Shown: piece after piece, positions 8,374-16,790 of the stretch | Position numbering within the stretch: position 1 is the first letter of the stretch | Layout: every line of letters starts with the position of its first letter | NCBI RefSeq assembly: GCF_007859315.1 | Contig: NZ_VOHA01000011.1 | Location: forward strand, 62,001 to 126,000 | Source of the DNA: Reyranella sp. CPCC 100927 | GTDB taxonomy: Bacteria > Pseudomonadota > Alphaproteobacteria > Reyranellales > Reyranellaceae | Length of the DNA: 64,000 bases | Direction of reading: 5' to 3' | The notes under the pieces: generated by a model | Told to the model about the DNA's origin: nothing | Seen by the model: the letters and a program-made list of their open reading frames with translations, nothing else | The model's database searches: none | Translations under genes and position numbers: made by a program

Positions 8374-8691
8374 CTATCGGCCGTCGGCACCCGGAACATA
8401 GATCAGGCGGCCGTCGGGCAGGCGGTACGTGATGCCGACCCGCACACCCTGCCCTTCGCCGATCTGGCCACTGGATTGGTAGCGCGTCAGTTCCTTGCCG
8501 TCCTTGACCGTGATGCGCATATCCGGCGCGCCCGGGTTCTCGACCGTCACCACCTTGCTGGCGCTGAACGGGTTGAGGGGGTTGTTCACGATGGCGACCA
8601 TCAGGATGGCAATCACGACCAGAAAGAGGTCGATCAGGTTGACGACGGAGAGGACCGGATCGTCGGCATCATCATCGGCCAGGAACCGCAT
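8374..8691 (-). CDS. DUF2149 membrane protein, HmuV-like channel partner
   Basis: A 105-residue protein with one transmembrane helix near the N-terminus (VNLIDLFLVVIAILMVAIV) and a periplasmic-looking tail ending in a beta-rich region (LPDGRLIYVPGADGR). The topology and the acidic residue in the helix region resemble ExbD/TolR, the plug partner of ExbB/TolQ channels. The sequence fits the DUF2149 family, which accompanies CobN-like proteins and is called HmuV in Bacteroidetes haem loci. Its ATG overlaps the stop of the ExbB-like gene (TGATG), so translation is coupled. It is the last gene of the operon starting at 14981. Confidence 0.75.
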   Translation of the reverse strand: MRFLADDDADDPVLSVVNLIDLFLVVIAILMVAIVNNPLNPFSASKVVTVENPGAPDMRITVKDGKELTRYQSSGQIGEGQGVRVGITYRLPDGRLIYVPGADGR

Positions 8692-9167
8692 CACGATGTC
8701 TCCCGCGCGCGTTCGATGGCGCGCAGTTCCTGAAGCAGCCAGCGGCGGCGGACGGTGAGCATGAAGAAGGCGAGACTGGCGCTGATCAGCGCCAGGATGA
8801 CCGACGAGAACGCCACCACCAGGTTCTCGCCCATCGCCTTGGCATCGTTGTTCGTCAGCGCCAGCAGCGCCGGGCCCATGGGAATCATCGTCGCCACCAG
8901 ACCCAGCATCGGCGTGCTGCGGGCAACCACGCGCAGCCACTCCAGGCGCTTCAGGATCCAGATCTCCAGGTCGTCGGAATTGCAATTGGTCTGGCGGTGA
9001 TGCGCCGCCAGACGGGAGCGATGAACGCCGCGCCAGCGTTGCCAGGCCTCCATGGCGAAAGCACCCAGCGCGACAAAGACGTAGACCAAAGCCACCAGAA
9101 CCAGGACGAGCACCGGCAACAGGAACAGGCGGGTGACCTCATAGAGACTCGATTCCAAGGCTGTCAT
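8691..9167 (-). CDS. MotA/TolQ/ExbB-family proton channel subunit (HmuU-like)
   Basis: A 158-residue membrane protein with an N-terminal helix (LFLLPVLVLVLVALVYVFVALGAF), a cytoplasmic charged loop and two C-terminal helices. The segment RSTPMLGLVATMIPMGPALLAL is the hallmark third-helix region of the ExbB/TolQ/MotA family (PF01618). The family forms proton-driven motors that energise outer-membrane or periplasmic machines. It is short for an ExbB. The ATG overlaps the CobN-like stop by 4 nt (ATGA), and its own stop overlaps the DUF2149 start, so the three subunits are probably made in a set ratio. By context it powers the CobN-like chelatase rather than a classical TonB complex; no tonB is present here. 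Confidence 0.85.
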   Translation of the reverse strand: MTALESSLYEVTRLFLLPVLVLVLVALVYVFVALGAFAMEAWQRWRGVHRSRLAAHHRQTNCNSDDLEIWILKRLEWLRVVARSTPMLGLVATMIPMGPALLALTNNDAKAMGENLVVAFSSVILALISASLAFFMLTVRRRWLLQELRAIERARETS

Positions 9168-12100
9168 GACACTCCCTCTCGCGCGCCTGCGTTGCTGCGG
9201 GCCTGCCACGCCATGCCGACCAGGAAACAGGTGCACAGCGCCGACAGGCAGAGCCAGGCCAGCCACGCCGATGGCTCGGTGGTTTGCCGCGGCACAGGTG
9301 CCAGGACCTGACCTTGCACCGGCTCGGGCGCACGTCCGGCGGGCGGCACAGCGGACTGCGCCGGCGCTGCTGTCGCCGACAGGCCGAAGCCCGCCGCAGC
9401 CTGCGTCACGAAGGCGCGCGTGGCCTCGGCGCCGATATCGACGCCATGATCGCGCGCCAGTTGCTGCCAGCGCTCGACAAGTTCGCGCCGCGTCTGTTCG
9501 CTCGCATCCCAGTAGCCTTCGCGAATCGCTTCGACGAGGCGTTCGACGACCTGCGCCTGGGCCGTCGGATTGTGCTGTGCGAACCAGCCGTTCAGATCCA
9601 GCTTGCGCTGGTCGCGCACGAACGTGTCGTGAATGGCCTGCCACTGGTCGGCCCGCACCGTATCCGGCGCCGTCACCTGCCAGCCCCAGACATTGTTCAC
9701 GATCTTCAGAATTTCGACGGTGCCGGCATAGCCTTCGCGCTTCATCGCGCCGATCCAGTGCGGGTTGAGGTATCGCGCCCGCAGTTCGTCGGCCAGCAGG
9801 CGCGCTGCCGGAGTCATCCGCGCCTTGGCGTCGCGCAGGTCAGCGACGTACAGGTCGGGCGCATTGCCCGTCAGATGGCGCACGGCCAGCGACAGGCCGC
9901 CGAGATACTCGAACGGATGGTCGGTCGAGAGCATGCCGTGCAGCCGCGACGAGCGTGCCAGGACAGCCGCCTGCACGCCATGCAGCTGCAGGGCGAACAG
10001 GTTGCCGTCATCCAGCCGCACGCCCCAGTCGCGCTTGCCGTAGGCATACTGCAGGCGCGCCAGGAAACGCTCAGCCAACGGCGCGTCGCTGTCCCATGAC
10101 GCGGAGCGCAAGGTCGCGTCCGGCAGGCCGCTGCCATAGTCGCCCGGTTCATTGCTGAACAGCCGCAGGCTCGCCAGCTGCTGCGCGCGTTGCGGCGCGA
10201 CACCGCGCGCCTGCAGCTGCTGCATGATCTGTCGCGTGTTGTGCGCCACTGCATTGCCGGGCTCGTCGAGCATGGCCAGACGCTCGATCGCGTCGGCCAG
10301 CAGTCGCATGAAGCCGTCGAACTGATCGCGGTAGACGCTGGTGACCTGCAGCACGACATCGATGCGCGACCGTCCCAGTTCGGACGCGGGAATGATGTCG
10401 AGCGCGACGACCCGCCCACCGCTGTTCCACACCGGCCGCAGGCCCAGCGCGTGCAGCACCTGGCTTTCCAGCACGCCAAGATGGCGCAACGCCTCCGACG
10501 ACCACAGTGAGAAGGCGAGCTTCTCGGGAGGCTTGCCGTCATGCTGCAGACGATAGGCATCGAGAAGCTTCTGCAAGGCCTCGTGCCCGGTGTCGTAGGC
10601 AGCGCGGGTCGGAATCTTGTCGGGTTCGAAGGCGAAGAGGTTGCGACCGCTGGGCACATCGGGGTTGCGTATCGGATCGCCGCCCGGCCCTGGCGCCACG
10701 AACCCGCCGGAGAGGCCGGCCAGCAGCGCCTCGATCTCCTGCGGGTCGCCGAGGTGCCGGTCGAGCGCGACGGCACGCGCCAGCACCTGCCGCATGCCGG
10801 CGTCCACGTCCGCCATCGGTACGCCCTCGCGCAGATAGCGTCGCAGATAGCGATAGGGCTCGCTGTCCTGCAGCGCCGCAAAATCCTCGGCGAAGACCTC
10901 CTGCGAATCCAGGCCCAGCCGCCGGTAGTACGACTCGCCCAGTTGCTGCATCACCGTGGCCAGACGATGCTCCGGCGCCGCGGGGTCGCCGAACGTATGC
11001 AACCCCAGCGGCAGCGCGTGGCGCGCCAGTTGATGCAGATGATCGTGCAAGGCACCGACGAAGCCGTCAGGGTCGCGCGTCATGGCGGCCTCGTCCCAGC
11101 CGAGATCGCGCTGCAGGTTGCCTTTCAGCACCGCCGCGCGGATCTGCGTCGCGGTGCGATCACGGGCCGGTCCTTCGGCAAGCTGAAGGTAATCGTGGAT
11201 CAGCACATGCAGGTCGCGCAGTTCGTCATAGAGGCCAGCTGGCGCGAAGGCGGGCGTCTGATGGCTCACGACGACGGCACGCCCGCGCCGCCGGGCCTGG
11301 ATGGCTTCGCCGATATTGTCCTGGATGTAGGGGTAGAAAACCGGCAGGTCGCCCACGGCGAGAAACGGAAAGTCGCTGGCCGCCAGGCCGCGATCCTTGC
11401 CCGGCGTCCATTCCTGCGTGCCGTGCGTGCCCAGATGGATTAGCGCGTGCGCGCCCTGCACCTGGCGGACATACAGGTAGGCCGCCAGATAGAGATGATC
11501 CGGCGGCGTGCGCGTGTCGTGATACGCCTTGGCGGAATCGCCGCCGCGCGGCGGCTGCGGCATCACGACAAGCTTGCCCAGCCGCAGACGCGGAACGATG
11601 AACTGCGCCTGGCCATCGACCTGCCGCACCGCCGCATGCGCCTCGGGTTGCCCCCAGCGCTCGACGAGCGCGACACGCACCGTCTCGGGCAACCCGTCGA
11701 ACCAGGCGCGATAGCGCGCCACCGGGACAGCTTCCGCCAACCCATCGGCCAGCAGTTTCTCGAGTACCTCGGGCCGATAGAACGCCGCCAGCATCGACTG
11801 TCCGGCGTCGATCAGCTGCCGTTCGTCAGCCGGCGTCACGTCATAGCCGGCCGCTGACAACGCCTTACTGATCCGCTCGAGGCTGCGCGGCACATTGAGG
11901 TGCGAGGCCGACAGGTTCTTTTCGCCGATCGGGTAGTTCCAGAACATCAACGCCAGGCGCTTGTCCGCCACCGGCGTGCGCCGCAGGGCGGCAAGCGCGG
12001 CGGCCTTGTCGAGCAGCGCAGCGACCTGCTCGGGCAGCGGCGTCGGCTCGCCATTCTCCACGGCATCGATCACCAGCGGATCGCTGACACCCCAGCTCTC

Positions 12101-13024
12101 GGGCAGGCTGAGGAACGGCGCCACGATGTGCGGCGGCACACCGCTGGTGGCCCGGCGCCACGCTGCCGGATCACCTTCGCGGAAGGTGATGGTCTGCAGC
12201 ACCGGCCGGTCGAGCGCCTGGAACTCGGCCAGGCGCACCGGGCCGTTCAACATGTGCTGCAGGTTGACCAGCACGTCGGGACTGGCGGACCCCAGCGTGC
12301 TCTGCAACGCGCGCGGATCGGCCGCCTCGAACCAGAACACCAGCGGCACCAGACCGCGCGCTTCGCTGGCCGCCACCAGCGCATCGATGACGCGGGTCTG
12401 CATGTTGGCCAGTGCGCTGGCATGAACGGCGAACGCAATGCGCGGCGCATCCGGCCGCCAGCGATCAGCCCCCCAGGCCAGATAGGTCTCGACCTGCGCA
12501 AACGGCTGTGGCGCCCGGGGGTGATAGAAACCGGCCTTGGGCAGGACCGCCGGTGGTGCCACCGACGCAACGTCGCCGCCGGCCTGCCATTGCTTGATGT
12601 AGCCGACCAGCCGACGCAGGTTGGCCTCGCCGCCGTTGGCGTAGTACGCGACGAGGCGCTGCGCGTGCTCAGGCGCGATGCGATCGAAGGCCGGGGGACC
12701 GCCGCCGATGCGGATCCAGGGGATGGTGCTCTGAGTCAGGGCCGTGCCCAGGCGCGCCTGTACGGCTGCCAGGTCGTTCGGCCGCGGCGTGTCGAGGATC
12801 ACGAGGTTGGCGCCGGCAATCCAGGCAGCCGGGTCGCCCGGCGCGGCGTCGATGTAGACGGGCTCGACCATCACACCGGCCTCACGTCCCCATGCGGCGA
12901 GCCTGGCGAACTTGGCCGGCAGCACGAAGTCGTTGGTGACGATGCGCACCACCGGCTCGGCCTGCGCAGTGCTCGCCGAGAAGAGAGCGCACACCAAGGC
13001 CATCACGCGCGCGATCGTGGGCAT
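9164..13024 (-). CDS. Exported, membrane-anchored CobN-like chelatase (HmuS-like)
   Basis: A 1286-residue member of the CobN/Mg-chelatase H-subunit family (PF02514). The core motif HLGTHGTQEWTPGKD lies near residues 528-542, followed by the usual GDLPVFYPYIQDNIGE region. Cytoplasmic CobN inserts cobalt during B12 synthesis. This one instead begins with a Sec signal (RVMALVCALFSASTAQA) and ends with a transmembrane helix (WLAWLCLSALCTCFLVGMAW) plus a short basic tail, so the catalytic body should face the periplasm. The ATG at 13024 follows the receptor stop by one base (TGACATG) and is preferred over an upstream Met that would overlap the receptor. Together with the TonB receptor, ExbB-like and DUF2149 genes this matches the HmuRSUV arrangement, where HmuS is linked to removing metal from tetrapyrrole. 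The metal and ligand here are not proven. Confidence 0.85.
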   Translation of the reverse strand: MPTIARVMALVCALFSASTAQAEPVVRIVTNDFVLPAKFARLAAWGREAGVMVEPVYIDAAPGDPAAWIAGANLVILDTPRPNDLAAVQARLGTALTQSTIPWIRIGGGPPAFDRIAPEHAQRLVAYYANGGEANLRRLVGYIKQWQAGGDVASVAPPAVLPKAGFYHPRAPQPFAQVETYLAWGADRWRPDAPRIAFAVHASALANMQTRVIDALVAASEARGLVPLVFWFEAADPRALQSTLGSASPDVLVNLQHMLNGPVRLAEFQALDRPVLQTITFREGDPAAWRRATSGVPPHIVAPFLSLPESWGVSDPLVIDAVENGEPTPLPEQVAALLDKAAALAALRRTPVADKRLALMFWNYPIGEKNLSASHLNVPRSLERISKALSAAGYDVTPADERQLIDAGQSMLAAFYRPEVLEKLLADGLAEAVPVARYRAWFDGLPETVRVALVERWGQPEAHAAVRQVDGQAQFIVPRLRLGKLVVMPQPPRGGDSAKAYHDTRTPPDHLYLAAYLYVRQVQGAHALIHLGTHGTQEWTPGKDRGLAASDFPFLAVGDLPVFYPYIQDNIGEAIQARRRGRAVVVSHQTPAFAPAGLYDELRDLHVLIHDYLQLAEGPARDRTATQIRAAVLKGNLQRDLGWDEAAMTRDPDGFVGALHDHLHQLARHALPLGLHTFGDPAAPEHRLATVMQQLGESYYRRLGLDSQEVFAEDFAALQDSEPYRYLRRYLREGVPMADVDAGMRQVLARAVALDRHLGDPQEIEALLAGLSGGFVAPGPGGDPIRNPDVPSGRNLFAFEPDKIPTRAAYDTGHEALQKLLDAYRLQHDGKPPEKLAFSLWSSEALRHLGVLESQVLHALGLRPVWNSGGRVVALDIIPASELGRSRIDVVLQVTSVYRDQFDGFMRLLADAIERLAMLDEPGNAVAHNTRQIMQQLQARGVAPQRAQQLASLRLFSNEPGDYGSGLPDATLRSASWDSDAPLAERFLARLQYAYGKRDWGVRLDDGNLFALQLHGVQAAVLARSSRLHGMLSTDHPFEYLGGLSLAVRHLTGNAPDLYVADLRDAKARMTPAARLLADELRARYLNPHWIGAMKREGYAGTVEILKIVNNVWGWQVTAPDTVRADQWQAIHDTFVRDQRKLDLNGWFAQHNPTAQAQVVERLVEAIREGYWDASEQTRRELVERWQQLARDHGVDIGAEATRAFVTQAAAGFGLSATAAPAQSAVPPAGRAPEPVQGQVLAPVPRQTTEPSAWLAWLCLSALCTCFLVGMAWQARSNAGAREGVS

Positions 13025-13025
13025 G

Positions 13026-14981
13026 TCAGAACCTGTAGTTGAGGCCGACCCAGTAGAGGCGACCCGGCTCGGCATAGGTGAACAACGACGATTTTTCGGC
13101 GAGGCGTTCGTTGGCGATGTTCTGGACGCCGGCGCGCATGGTGACCGTGTCGGTCAGTCGATGACTGAGGTCGATCGACCACAGCGTATAGCCCGGCAGA
13201 CGCCGGCCGCCGGTCGCGGTCGGATACACGATCTGCCGCCCGACATAGTCACCGCGCAGTTGCACGGTCGTGCCTTCGCGCGGCGTCCAGCCCAGCGTGA
13301 CGTTGCCGCTGTGCCGCGGGCGCTCCGGCAATTCCTGGCCCGTCGTGCGGTTCTTGGTGTCGAGAAACGTGTAGTTCGCATCCAGGCGCAGCTGCCAGGG
13401 CAGCGCCACGCCACCGGCGATCTCGACACCGCGAATGCGCGCCTTCTCGACATTCTCGTACGTGCGAATCTCGCGACCGCGGATACCGCAGAAGCGTACG
13501 CACGCGGTCTGGATCAGGTTCTTCAGGTCGTTCTGAAACACCGTGGCGCGCAACGACCATGACGCCGCCTGGTAGTCGGCACCGAACTCGTAGGATGTGT
13601 TGATCTCCGGCCGCAGATCGGGGTTGCCCACGATGGTGAAGCGGCCGGCCGCCGCCACGGCGCGGTACTCCGGCGACAGCTGCTTCAGGGTCGGCGCCTT
13701 GAAGCCGCGACCGACGCCGACCCGAAATGTCAGCGCGTCATTCCAGTGATGCACCAGATAGGCGCGCGGACTGTTCTGCCAGCCGAATGCATCGTGATGA
13801 TCGAGCCGATTGCCGATCACCAGCGACCAGTCGGCGCCCAGCGTGATCTCGTCCTGCAGGAAGAGCGCCTGGTGCGTCGCCTGCGCCCGGCCGCGGCGGT
13901 TGACCGTGCTGTCCTTCAGGCGCTCCTCGCGCCATTCACCGCCCAGCGTGATGCGATTGAAGCCGAACGCACCGAACGTCAGATGGCCATCGACAATGTC
14001 GTCGGTCAGCCGGTGTGGCCCCGACGGTGTCCCCTGCGAGCGCCGGCTCTCGCGATAGAGGGTCGATCGATAGGCACGCAGCGTGCTGCTGCCCCAACCC
14101 CAGTCTCCTTGATGGGTCAGCGAGAACTGCTGGCGCTCGACATCATCGGTCGTCTTGTAGAACGACGGCGCGGGGCCCTCCGACAACAGCTTGTACAGGC
14201 GCCGATCGACGCCATAGCCGTAGCTGAGGTCGATGCGCTGCGCCTGATCGGGCGTCCATGTCAGAACCGCCTTGCCGGCGGCGCTGTCGCGCTTCTCGAG
14301 TTCCGACCGGCGCGGCTCGGTGGGATCGGGGGCCAGCTGGCGACCGCTGGCCTCGCCATAGAGGCTGAGCGCGAGACGACCGGGCACCAGCGGACCGCCG
14401 GCATAGCCGCCGAACTGATACGTATCGCCGCCGCGACGCTGCTGCAGGCCACCGGTGCCGGAGAAACCGCCGTGCCAGGCATCCGTGGCGCGTCGCGTGA
14501 TGACGTTGATGACTCCACCCAGCGCTTCGGAGCCGTAGAGCGAGGACATCGGACCGCGCACCACCTCGATGCGCTCGATGGCCTCGACCGGAATCCAGTT
14601 CAGGTCGTAGTCGGCATGGGCGATGGCGCTGCCCGCGGTGTTGACGCGCTTGCCATCGACCAGGATCAGCGTGTGTTCGCTCGGCATGCCGCGGATGCTG
14701 ATGCCGCGCCGGTTGAGGCCGATACCGCCGATGGTGATTCCCGGCGTGCCGCGCAGAGCATCCGACAGATCCTGGACCGGTCGCCGGCTCAGCTGATCGC
14801 GCGTCACCACGGTAACTGTCGCCGGCGCGTCGCGCAGCTTGCGTTCGGTCGTCGTGGCGCTGACGACGACCGCGGGCAGCTCCTGGGATTCCTGGGCCTG
14901 CCCCTCGCCCGACATCATCGGCGCCACTGCCAGCAGAGACCAGTACAGCCGTCTTCGCGAGCGGTTGAACCGACAACGCAT
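13026..14981 (-). CDS. TonB-dependent outer-membrane receptor (BtuB/HmuR type)
   Basis: A 651-residue receptor. The signal peptide (RSRRRLYWSLLAVAPMM to GQAQ) is followed by a TonB-box-like LPAVVVSAT and a plug domain with GITIGGIGLNRRGISIRGM, ILVDGKRVN and IEVVRGPMSSLYGSEALGG. The last residue is an aromatic (VGLNYRF), as needed for barrel assembly. The start is ATG at 14981, with GGGGAG 8 nt upstream; a TTG 15 nt further up is less likely. An unusual Cys pair (ACVRFCG) lies in the barrel region about 490 residues in. It is the first gene of a four-gene operon controlled by a Zur-like palindrome, so the cargo is likely a metal, a metal-tetrapyrrole or a metallophore complex. Confidence 0.9.
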   Translation of the reverse strand: MRCRFNRSRRRLYWSLLAVAPMMSGEGQAQESQELPAVVVSATTTERKLRDAPATVTVVTRDQLSRRPVQDLSDALRGTPGITIGGIGLNRRGISIRGMPSEHTLILVDGKRVNTAGSAIAHADYDLNWIPVEAIERIEVVRGPMSSLYGSEALGGVINVITRRATDAWHGGFSGTGGLQQRRGGDTYQFGGYAGGPLVPGRLALSLYGEASGRQLAPDPTEPRRSELEKRDSAAGKAVLTWTPDQAQRIDLSYGYGVDRRLYKLLSEGPAPSFYKTTDDVERQQFSLTHQGDWGWGSSTLRAYRSTLYRESRRSQGTPSGPHRLTDDIVDGHLTFGAFGFNRITLGGEWREERLKDSTVNRRGRAQATHQALFLQDEITLGADWSLVIGNRLDHHDAFGWQNSPRAYLVHHWNDALTFRVGVGRGFKAPTLKQLSPEYRAVAAAGRFTIVGNPDLRPEINTSYEFGADYQAASWSLRATVFQNDLKNLIQTACVRFCGIRGREIRTYENVEKARIRGVEIAGGVALPWQLRLDANYTFLDTKNRTTGQELPERPRHSGNVTLGWTPREGTTVQLRGDYVGRQIVYPTATGGRRLPGYTLWSIDLSHRLTDTVTMRAGVQNIANERLAEKSSLFTYAEPGRLYWVGLNYRF

Positions 14982-15015
14982 TCCCGAACTCCCCAACGCA
15001 CCTTTCCGATCGCGA

Positions 15016-15041
15016 ATTATAGAATGTTATAACGTAACATT
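15016..15041 (-). promoter_or_regulatory. Zur-like palindrome overlapping the receptor operon promoter
   Basis: AATGTTATAACGTAACATT at 15023-15041 has perfect 7-bp arms (AATGTTA/TAACATT) and agrees at 16 of 18 defined positions with the classical Zur site AATGTTATA-N-TATAACATT. Read on the minus strand it abuts a perfect TATAAT at 15021-15016, 34 nt before the receptor ATG, and a TATAAC lies inside it. Binding would block the promoter, giving repression by Zur under zinc-replete conditions. No zur gene is in the window. Confidence 0.65.
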
Positions 15042-15062
15042 TCCGATTGCAACAAAGTCTGG

Positions 15063-15104
15063 GCCGTCTGTCATCCCGCGCGCTGGCGCGGGATGACAGA
15101 CGGC
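15063..15104. terminator. Long hairpin between ettA and the receptor operon
   Basis: A perfect 18-bp stem (15063-15080 with 15087-15104, loop CGCTGG) begins right after the ettA stop codon. It contains GTCATCCCGCG and its complement, so it belongs to the same GTCATCC palindrome family seen near 18.1, 25.5 and 34.9 kb. No T-run follows, but its place fits transcript termination of ettA ahead of the operator. Confidence 0.6.
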
Positions 15105-15107
15105 GCG

Positions 15108-16790
<1,683 letters not shown>

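Follow-up and report, generated by a model that had tools for sequence, protein, structure and literature searches.

In a 64,000-nucleotide stretch of the Reyranella sp. CPCC 100927 genome (contig NZ_VOHA01000011.1, positions 62,001 to 126,000; hereafter the window), we describe an operon that encodes a TonB-dependent receptor, a CobN-like protein, an ExbB-like protein and a DUF2149 protein behind a candidate binding site for the regulator Zur. With a confidence somewhat above even, we read it as a zinc-starvation operon under Zur repression, of the kind known as PA1922-PA1925 in Pseudomonas aeruginosa, whose products would form a periplasmic, probably proton-driven de-chelatase that frees a metal from an imported chelate. 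The computation supports the regulation and the anatomy of this system only, and we infer its substrate, the direction of the reaction and the metal. In P. aeruginosa, zinc starvation strongly induces PA1922-PA1925, an operon without an assigned role since its description in 2015, whose CobN gene is read as a cobalamin gene. Residues of the type found in the haem protein HmuS offer a direct, testable alternative to that reading of the PA1923-type gene, and the distribution of Zur boxes places the system in numerous Alpha-, Beta- and Gammaproteobacteria.

A four-gene operon behind a putative Zur box

The four genes lie on the minus strand in the order receptor, CobN-like, ExbB-like and DUF2149 (Table 1), and the product of each exceeds the cut-off of its Pfam model. 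A single base separates the receptor gene from the CobN-like gene, which shares an ATGA overlap with the ExbB-like gene, and the latter overlaps the DUF2149 gene by one base. These coordinates and junctions agree with an earlier sequence-only reading of this DNA, which had described four genes with stop-start overlaps or one-base gaps.

Table 1. The operon and its putative regulatory site; coordinates are window positions.
Feature	Coordinates	Strand	Basis
TonB-dependent outer-membrane receptor, CirA-like, 651 aa	13026..14981	-	Pfam TonB receptor; top NCBIfam model CirA (436 bits, under the model cut-off of 745); top PDB match colicin I receptor
CobN/HmuS-like class I chelatase-type protein, predicted exported (by hydropathy) and membrane-anchored, 1286 aa	9164..13024	-	Pfam CobN-Mg_chel; top PDB match HmuS (9d26); tree; His257, His534, Glu573, Asp1035, His1036, Glu1039
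Short MotA/TolQ/ExbB-family protein, 158 aa	8691..9167	-	Pfam MotA_ExbB (2e-6); invariant residues
DUF2149 protein, 105 aa, single membrane helix (by eye), invariant Asp21	8374..8691	-	Pfam DUF2149; helix weakly like ExbD helix
Very probable Zur box, 19-bp palindrome AATGTTATAACGTAACATT	15023..15041		window pattern scan; conservation; fits P. aeruginosa Zur consensus

The palindrome in front of the receptor gene is very probably a Zur box. Mismatches were counted against an 18-position Zur consensus of our own, from which the palindrome departs at 2 of 18 positions, in line with the 16 of 18 agreements counted in the sequence-only reading; it is the sole match at no more than 3 mismatches in the window, where shuffles expect 0. 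The published P. aeruginosa consensus GWWAYWNNNTWHCR (as quoted in PMC10393844) is matched without mismatch at 15026-15039, a short pattern with a chance expectation, taken alone, of 0.42 per window. The palindrome had also been said to overlap the promoter; a sigma-70 consensus scan of positions 14900-15200 gave no promoter-like site, which leaves that claim unsupported.

Conservation of the box and the putative zinc regulon

We scanned named genomes with the CobN-like protein as query and kept the best 80 of 167 loci, selected by protein similarity and not by the box. ExbB-like and DUF2149 genes follow the CobN-like gene in 78 of the 80, and the same receptor type (>38% identity, >500 residues) precedes it in 70. 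The ten other loci comprise six with another receptor kind (L007, L009, L011, L014, L026 and L045; Pfam was run on five of these receptors, all except that of L009), two without a receptor match (L047, L067) and two with short receptor matches (L029, L064). A box at no more than 5 of 18 mismatches stands in 54 of the 70 upstream regions (52 of 69 after start-codon refinement), across Alpha-, Beta- and Gammaproteobacteria; dinucleotide shuffles gave such a box in 7 of 1400 cases and random windows from the same loci in 4 of 1317. At the same threshold five of the six loci with another receptor kind carry a box, a group that has no control set. The sequence-only reading had named this comparison as a check, with an absence of conservation counting against Zur; the palindrome proved to be conserved. 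Boxes matching our consensus also occur in loci whose names give other Pseudomonas species (L013, L028 and L056 among them) and, some 400-430 bases away, in five Stutzerimonas loci, whereas a review that counts boxes within 150 bases considers PA1922 to be Zur-controlled in P. aeruginosa alone (PMC10393844). In two Stutzerimonas loci another Zur-like box follows the DUF2149 gene at a distance of about 140 bases (L012:10836 and L038:10824). At L034:562-3857, from Pseudoxanthomonas wuyuanensis, genes for a FecCD permease and an ATP-binding cassette (ABC) ATPase precede the operon, and upstream of them lies a Zur-like box; the operon looks as though it were joined to a metallophore importer.

In the host genome (9.08 Mb in 81 contigs), the pattern ATGTTAYRNYRTAACAT occurs at 0-1 mismatch in four places, upstream of the present operon, of the only ZnuA-family gene, of a ZnuD-like receptor gene and of an S-adenosylmethionine (SAM) methyltransferase gene. 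The ZnuD-like receptor, which scores 584 bits, under its model cut-off of 950, is encoded by a gene distinct from that of the window receptor. Once up to 3 mismatches are allowed, the pattern occurs no more often than its reversed control (35 matches vs 41), and therefore only near-perfect sites were counted. Three Fur-family genes were found in this genome. One (L108:2930-3433), which matches PDB 7dh7 (an entry described only as Fur family) at 1.1e-36 and the zinc uptake regulation protein 4mtd at 7.4e-28, we take to be Zur; the second is Irr, and the third (L109) looks like Fur, by eye only.

A similar picture emerges from six relatives' genomes, where the box at no more than 1 mismatch gave 18 matches (overlapping registers counted) vs 0 for the reversed pattern. 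These matches fall in 15 separate places, 13 of them with a locus examined: five at a PA1922-type operon, three at COG0523 genes (one behind a dksA gene), and one each between znuA and an ABC ATPase gene (a znuA/znuC-type arrangement), at a ZnuD-like receptor gene, at a ribosomal protein L31 gene, at a DUF1826 gene and at a locus without assignment (L199). In these relatives the box marks a zinc regulon. Around the operon itself, the flanks of the 80 loci hold open reading frames (ORFs) taken as COG0523 GTPases in ten by clustering, with a short one in L018 by Pfam cobW, a Zur-like gene in five, and ZnuA and a ZnuD-like receptor in one each. Besides COG0523, the flanking-ORF clusters present in at least 6 loci were generic (ABC ATPases, siderophore-type receptors, dehydrogenases, LysR-type regulators), the other receptor kind, or antisense frames of these. 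The sequence-only reading had proposed Zur control, and the conserved boxes, the box on znuA and ZnuD-like genes and the putative Zur gene of the genome strongly support it; the operon is almost certainly under Zur control. At L192:1524-2237 the DUF1826 gene stands behind the same Zur-type box and is followed by a distant COG0523 relative.

The operon resembles PA1922-PA1925

The sequence-only reading, in which a zinc-regulated periplasmic de-chelatase would be a new acquisition route, does not stand as regards the novelty of zinc control over these genes: PA1922-PA1925 has been on record since 2015, backed by transcript, mobility-shift and proteome evidence. In a znuA mutant its four genes are up 147-, 122-, 45- and 56-fold, and a Zur site is reported (PMC4542158; Pederick et al. 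2015). An electrophoretic mobility shift assay was made with the PA1922 promoter (PMC8531726), and three of the four proteins were detected and were more abundant under zinc depletion (PMC11761036). Two reviews propose free-zinc import by the operon (PMC8456098 and PMC10393844), and no CobN gene was found in the available part of a Paracoccus zinc study (PMC5387054). The likeness between PA1922-PA1925 and the window operon lies in the order receptor, CobN-like, ExbD/ExbB-type and small protein, in the Zur box and, in the papers, in induction by zinc depletion. It rests on published descriptions; no locus named P. aeruginosa is among the 80 kept, while Pseudomonas and Stutzerimonas relatives were found. 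Among the publications listed, which mostly exclude subscription journals, we found none that ties PA1923 or Zur to HmuS de-chelation.

A methyltransferase gene marks a difference between the two. P. aeruginosa PA1921, listed next to PA1922 with the same Zur-site score, is a methyltransferase, whereas the Zur-boxed methyltransferase of Reyranella, a stand-alone SAM enzyme directly behind its near-perfect box (L105:4261-4965), lies on another contig (C78, near 19979). Because PA1921 is a methyltransferase, such a neighbour was sought beside the operon, with only two weak matches among the loci (L031 and L070) and none among the nine upstream neighbours run through Pfam. As far as seen, the methyltransferase is not conserved there. 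Among other related systems, ZnuD receptors share the idea of a Zur-regulated zinc TonB receptor, whereas the window receptor is CirA-like and the ZnuD-like receptor of the genome is separate.

The CobN-like protein is predicted to be of the HmuS class

The CobN-like protein has a hydrophobic N-terminus and a C-terminal helix, and among 79 relatives longer than 1150 residues a simple hydropathy cut was passed by 70 for the N-terminus and 74 for the C-terminal helix. In a FastTree phylogeny rooted on BchH, which comprised the window protein, the 79 relatives, three plasmid relatives (L113, L114 and L119), HmuS, five CobN and two BchH sequences, the first 83 proteins form a clade sister to Bacteroides thetaiotaomicron HmuS with support 1.0, CobN and BchH falling outside.

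The active site points the same way. In HmuS the catalytic residues are His538, Glu577, Asp1208, His1209 and Glu1212, and the haem ligands Met79 and His254 are specific to HmuS (PMC12583661; EMBO J 2025). By alignment His538 corresponds to His534 of the window protein, Glu577 to Glu573, Asp1208-His1209 to Asp1035-His1036, Glu1212 to Glu1039 and His254 to His257. Conservation was counted over 81 rows (the window protein and 80 loci), one of them a gap, presumably the interrupted L006. His534, Glu573 and Asp1035 are kept in 80 of 80 rows, His1036 and Glu1039 in 78 of 80, and His257 in 77 of 80; His257 is also present in L119 and is found in none of the seven CobN/BchH references. All five CobN references differ at both the His1036 and Glu1039 places, two of them (that of the host itself and that of Halobaculum) also at Asp1035, while both BchH references keep Asp-His and have Asp in place of Glu. 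CobN and ChlH-BchH share the fold family and His534 with the window protein and differ in lacking His257 and Asp-His-x-x-Glu, and their annotated references have biosynthetic neighbours. In all likelihood the window protein is an exported protein of the HmuS class. In L006:5935-6498, from Rhodospirillaceae bacterium SYSU D60014, the orthologous CobN-like gene breaks off early, which reflects either a genuine lesion or an error in the draft.

We also considered whether the gene encodes the cobaltochelatase CobN of B12 synthesis and rejected this assignment on account of the hydrophobic N-terminus and anchor, the outcome of an Rfam scan of the window, which gave no match and hence no cobalamin riboswitch before the operon, and a second CobN gene (1118 aa) on contig C45, which carries cobalamin riboswitches.

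The link to HmuS drawn from the gene set in the sequence-only reading is supported and sharpened by tree and active-site residues. The HmuYRSTUV system of Bacteroidota likewise comprises a receptor, a membrane-bound CobN-like protein, an ExbB-like protein and a small protein; it differs in that the four window genes include no HmuY or HmuT, in the Zur box in front and in the identity of only about 29%. The Bacteroidota relatives are treated as haem proteins (PMC6460266, a 2018 study of Bacteroides fragilis, and PMC13227078). Among them BtuS, the third CobN-like type of Rodionov 2003 (quoted in PMC6460266), is similarly a predicted exported, membrane-anchored CobN-like protein, but it has been studied for haem iron; the Bacteroides sequence compared here was B. 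thetaiotaomicron HmuS alone.

For the two small proteins, a 2026 study of Porphyromonas gingivalis describes HmuU as ExbB-like and HmuV as without homology to a known family (PMC13227078). In our DUF2149 set Asp21 is invariant (79 of 79), and hhalign matched the DUF2149 helix to that of ExbD, with the Asp in register, at 20% probability and p 0.0011, compared with 1.5% for a reversed profile and 0.4% for a CobN tail. Only the helix aligns, and kinship of DUF2149 with ExbD is suggestive only.

Proposed mechanism and alternatives

In the mechanism that we propose, a fall in zinc would cause Zur to leave its box. The receptor would bring into the periplasm a metal chelate, which is most likely a metallo-tetrapyrrole, and the CobN-like protein would bind it there as HmuS binds haem and then remove the metal, the ExbB-like/DUF2149 pair spending the proton gradient on binding, release or a conformational change. 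The freed metal, most likely zinc, would be handed to a ZnuA-type binding protein. We lean, by a little, towards a reaction in which a tetrapyrrole-like chelate loses its metal; zinc as that metal is a tentative proposal, at less than an even chance. The sequence-only reading's suggestion that zinc is stripped from an imported porphyrin or metallophore is likewise tentative, and cobalt or iron may be the metal recovered instead. More tentative still is the general form of the idea, a zinc-acquisition route widespread in proteobacteria in which a periplasmic HmuS-type de-chelatase, powered by a dedicated proton channel of two proteins, takes the zinc out of an imported zinc tetrapyrrole or zincophore. 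If true, a zinc de-chelatase would explain PA1922-PA1925. Plants have a magnesium de-chelatase; to our knowledge no zinc de-chelatase is otherwise known, and this would be the first.

Several observations weigh against de-chelation, or against parts of it. The tree contains a single partial HmuS sequence, copied from alignments, on a long branch, and identity to HmuS (28.6%) is not above that to CobN/BchH (27.9-32.5%). Two of the 80 loci, L039 and L049, as well as the outlying L113 and L114, have the CobN-like Asp/Gln instead of His1036/Glu1039, and His257 is absent in L113 and falls in a gap in L114. The HmuS alignment begins at HmuS residue 122, beyond Met79, which has no alignable counterpart. 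The Met-rich insertion that defines HmuS is absent, query residues 717-722 spanning HmuS 721-895, and relatives over window residues 700-745 have 43-70 residues and no such insertion; although the catalytic residues and the His254 counterpart are kept, the protein is therefore HmuS-like while failing one defining feature. HmuS activity requires NADH and reduced haem, for which zinc offers no obvious counterpart (PMC12583661), and porphyrin release from haem persisted in a B. fragilis strain mutated in both btuS1 and btuS2 (PMC6460266). On the regulatory side, 16 of the 70 operons have no box at 5 mismatches or fewer, nor does the plasmid copy L119 carry a Zur box. The P. aeruginosa literature leans to free zinc or cobalt, and no substrate is on record. 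For L039 and L049 the best box matches have 6 and 9 mismatches.

The serious and strongest alternative is cobalt salvage, in which the operon would import a cobalt complex (a corrinoid or metallophore) and strip its cobalt to replace zinc in enzymes while zinc is scarce. Membership of the CobN superfamily fits this account, as does the suggestion that the operon may account for the raised cobalt of the znuA mutant (PMC4542158); cobalt moreover relieves zinc starvation, and pyochelin-cobalt is taken up through another Zur operon (PMC11481552 and PMC13083405). However, the receptor scores best with CirA models rather than BtuB, and His1036 and Glu1039 are unlike the residues of B12 CobN. A further Rfam scan covered 18 loci: 14 of the 16 box-less receptor loci (L032 and L058 left out), L046 (box at 5 mismatches), L113, L114 and L119. 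As in the window, it gave no cobalamin riboswitch in front of the operon, its only matches being a riboswitch that lies downstream in L119 and, in L057, a tRNA. We regard cobalt salvage as unlikely, albeit well worth considering.

Somewhat less probable again is free zinc import, in which the receptor would pass zinc ions, the ExbB-like/DUF2149 pair would energise it and the CobN-like protein would merely hold zinc. Zur control suits this model, and it has been put forward in print for the receptor and the ExbD-type protein (PMC8456098 and PMC10393844). Yet merely holding zinc would hardly call for 1286 residues and an HmuS catalytic set kept in 78-80 of 80 rows, the four genes include no TonB gene, and the CobN-like/ExbB/DUF2149 core stays constant while the receptor kind changes in 6 of the 80 loci.

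Haem-iron de-chelation as in HmuS, placed under Zur since haem or iron supply matters in zinc shortage, would accord with the sister-group position and the shared haem ligand His254, but the Zur box in front, Zur-type sites being the only Fur-family boxes sought, and the zinc-supply genes (COG0523, Zur-like, ZnuA, ZnuD-like) that adjoin the operon in some loci or share its box, make it quite improbable. Metal insertion by a periplasmic chelatase making a zinc or cobalt tetrapyrrole, as other class I chelatases insert metal, is hardly credible for an operon that contains an uptake receptor and none of the ATP-driven partner subunits that cytosolic class I chelatases use.

Distribution

Across 75 Reyranellaceae genomes, the host included, matches to the CobN-like protein occur in 54, with a close copy only in the host. 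The other matches show 28-50% identity and are mostly pieces, three near full length at 31-33%; we take them to be B12 CobN or BchH (L124 and L125 being set aside), and L123 carries the BchH motif. The three other genomes of the host genus gave no match. Among the best 80 of 167 loci, the closest proteins come from Azospirillum, Stella and other Rhodospirillales (about 65-70%). A close copy in the host alone within its family, together with closest proteins in other Rhodospirillales, suggests that the operon was gained laterally. On a plasmid of Azospirillum brasilense Sp7 (L119:5920-10976), CobN-like, ExbB and DUF2149 genes stand without an adjacent receptor gene and are followed by a cobalamin riboswitch and by ABC-transporter and TonB-receptor genes.

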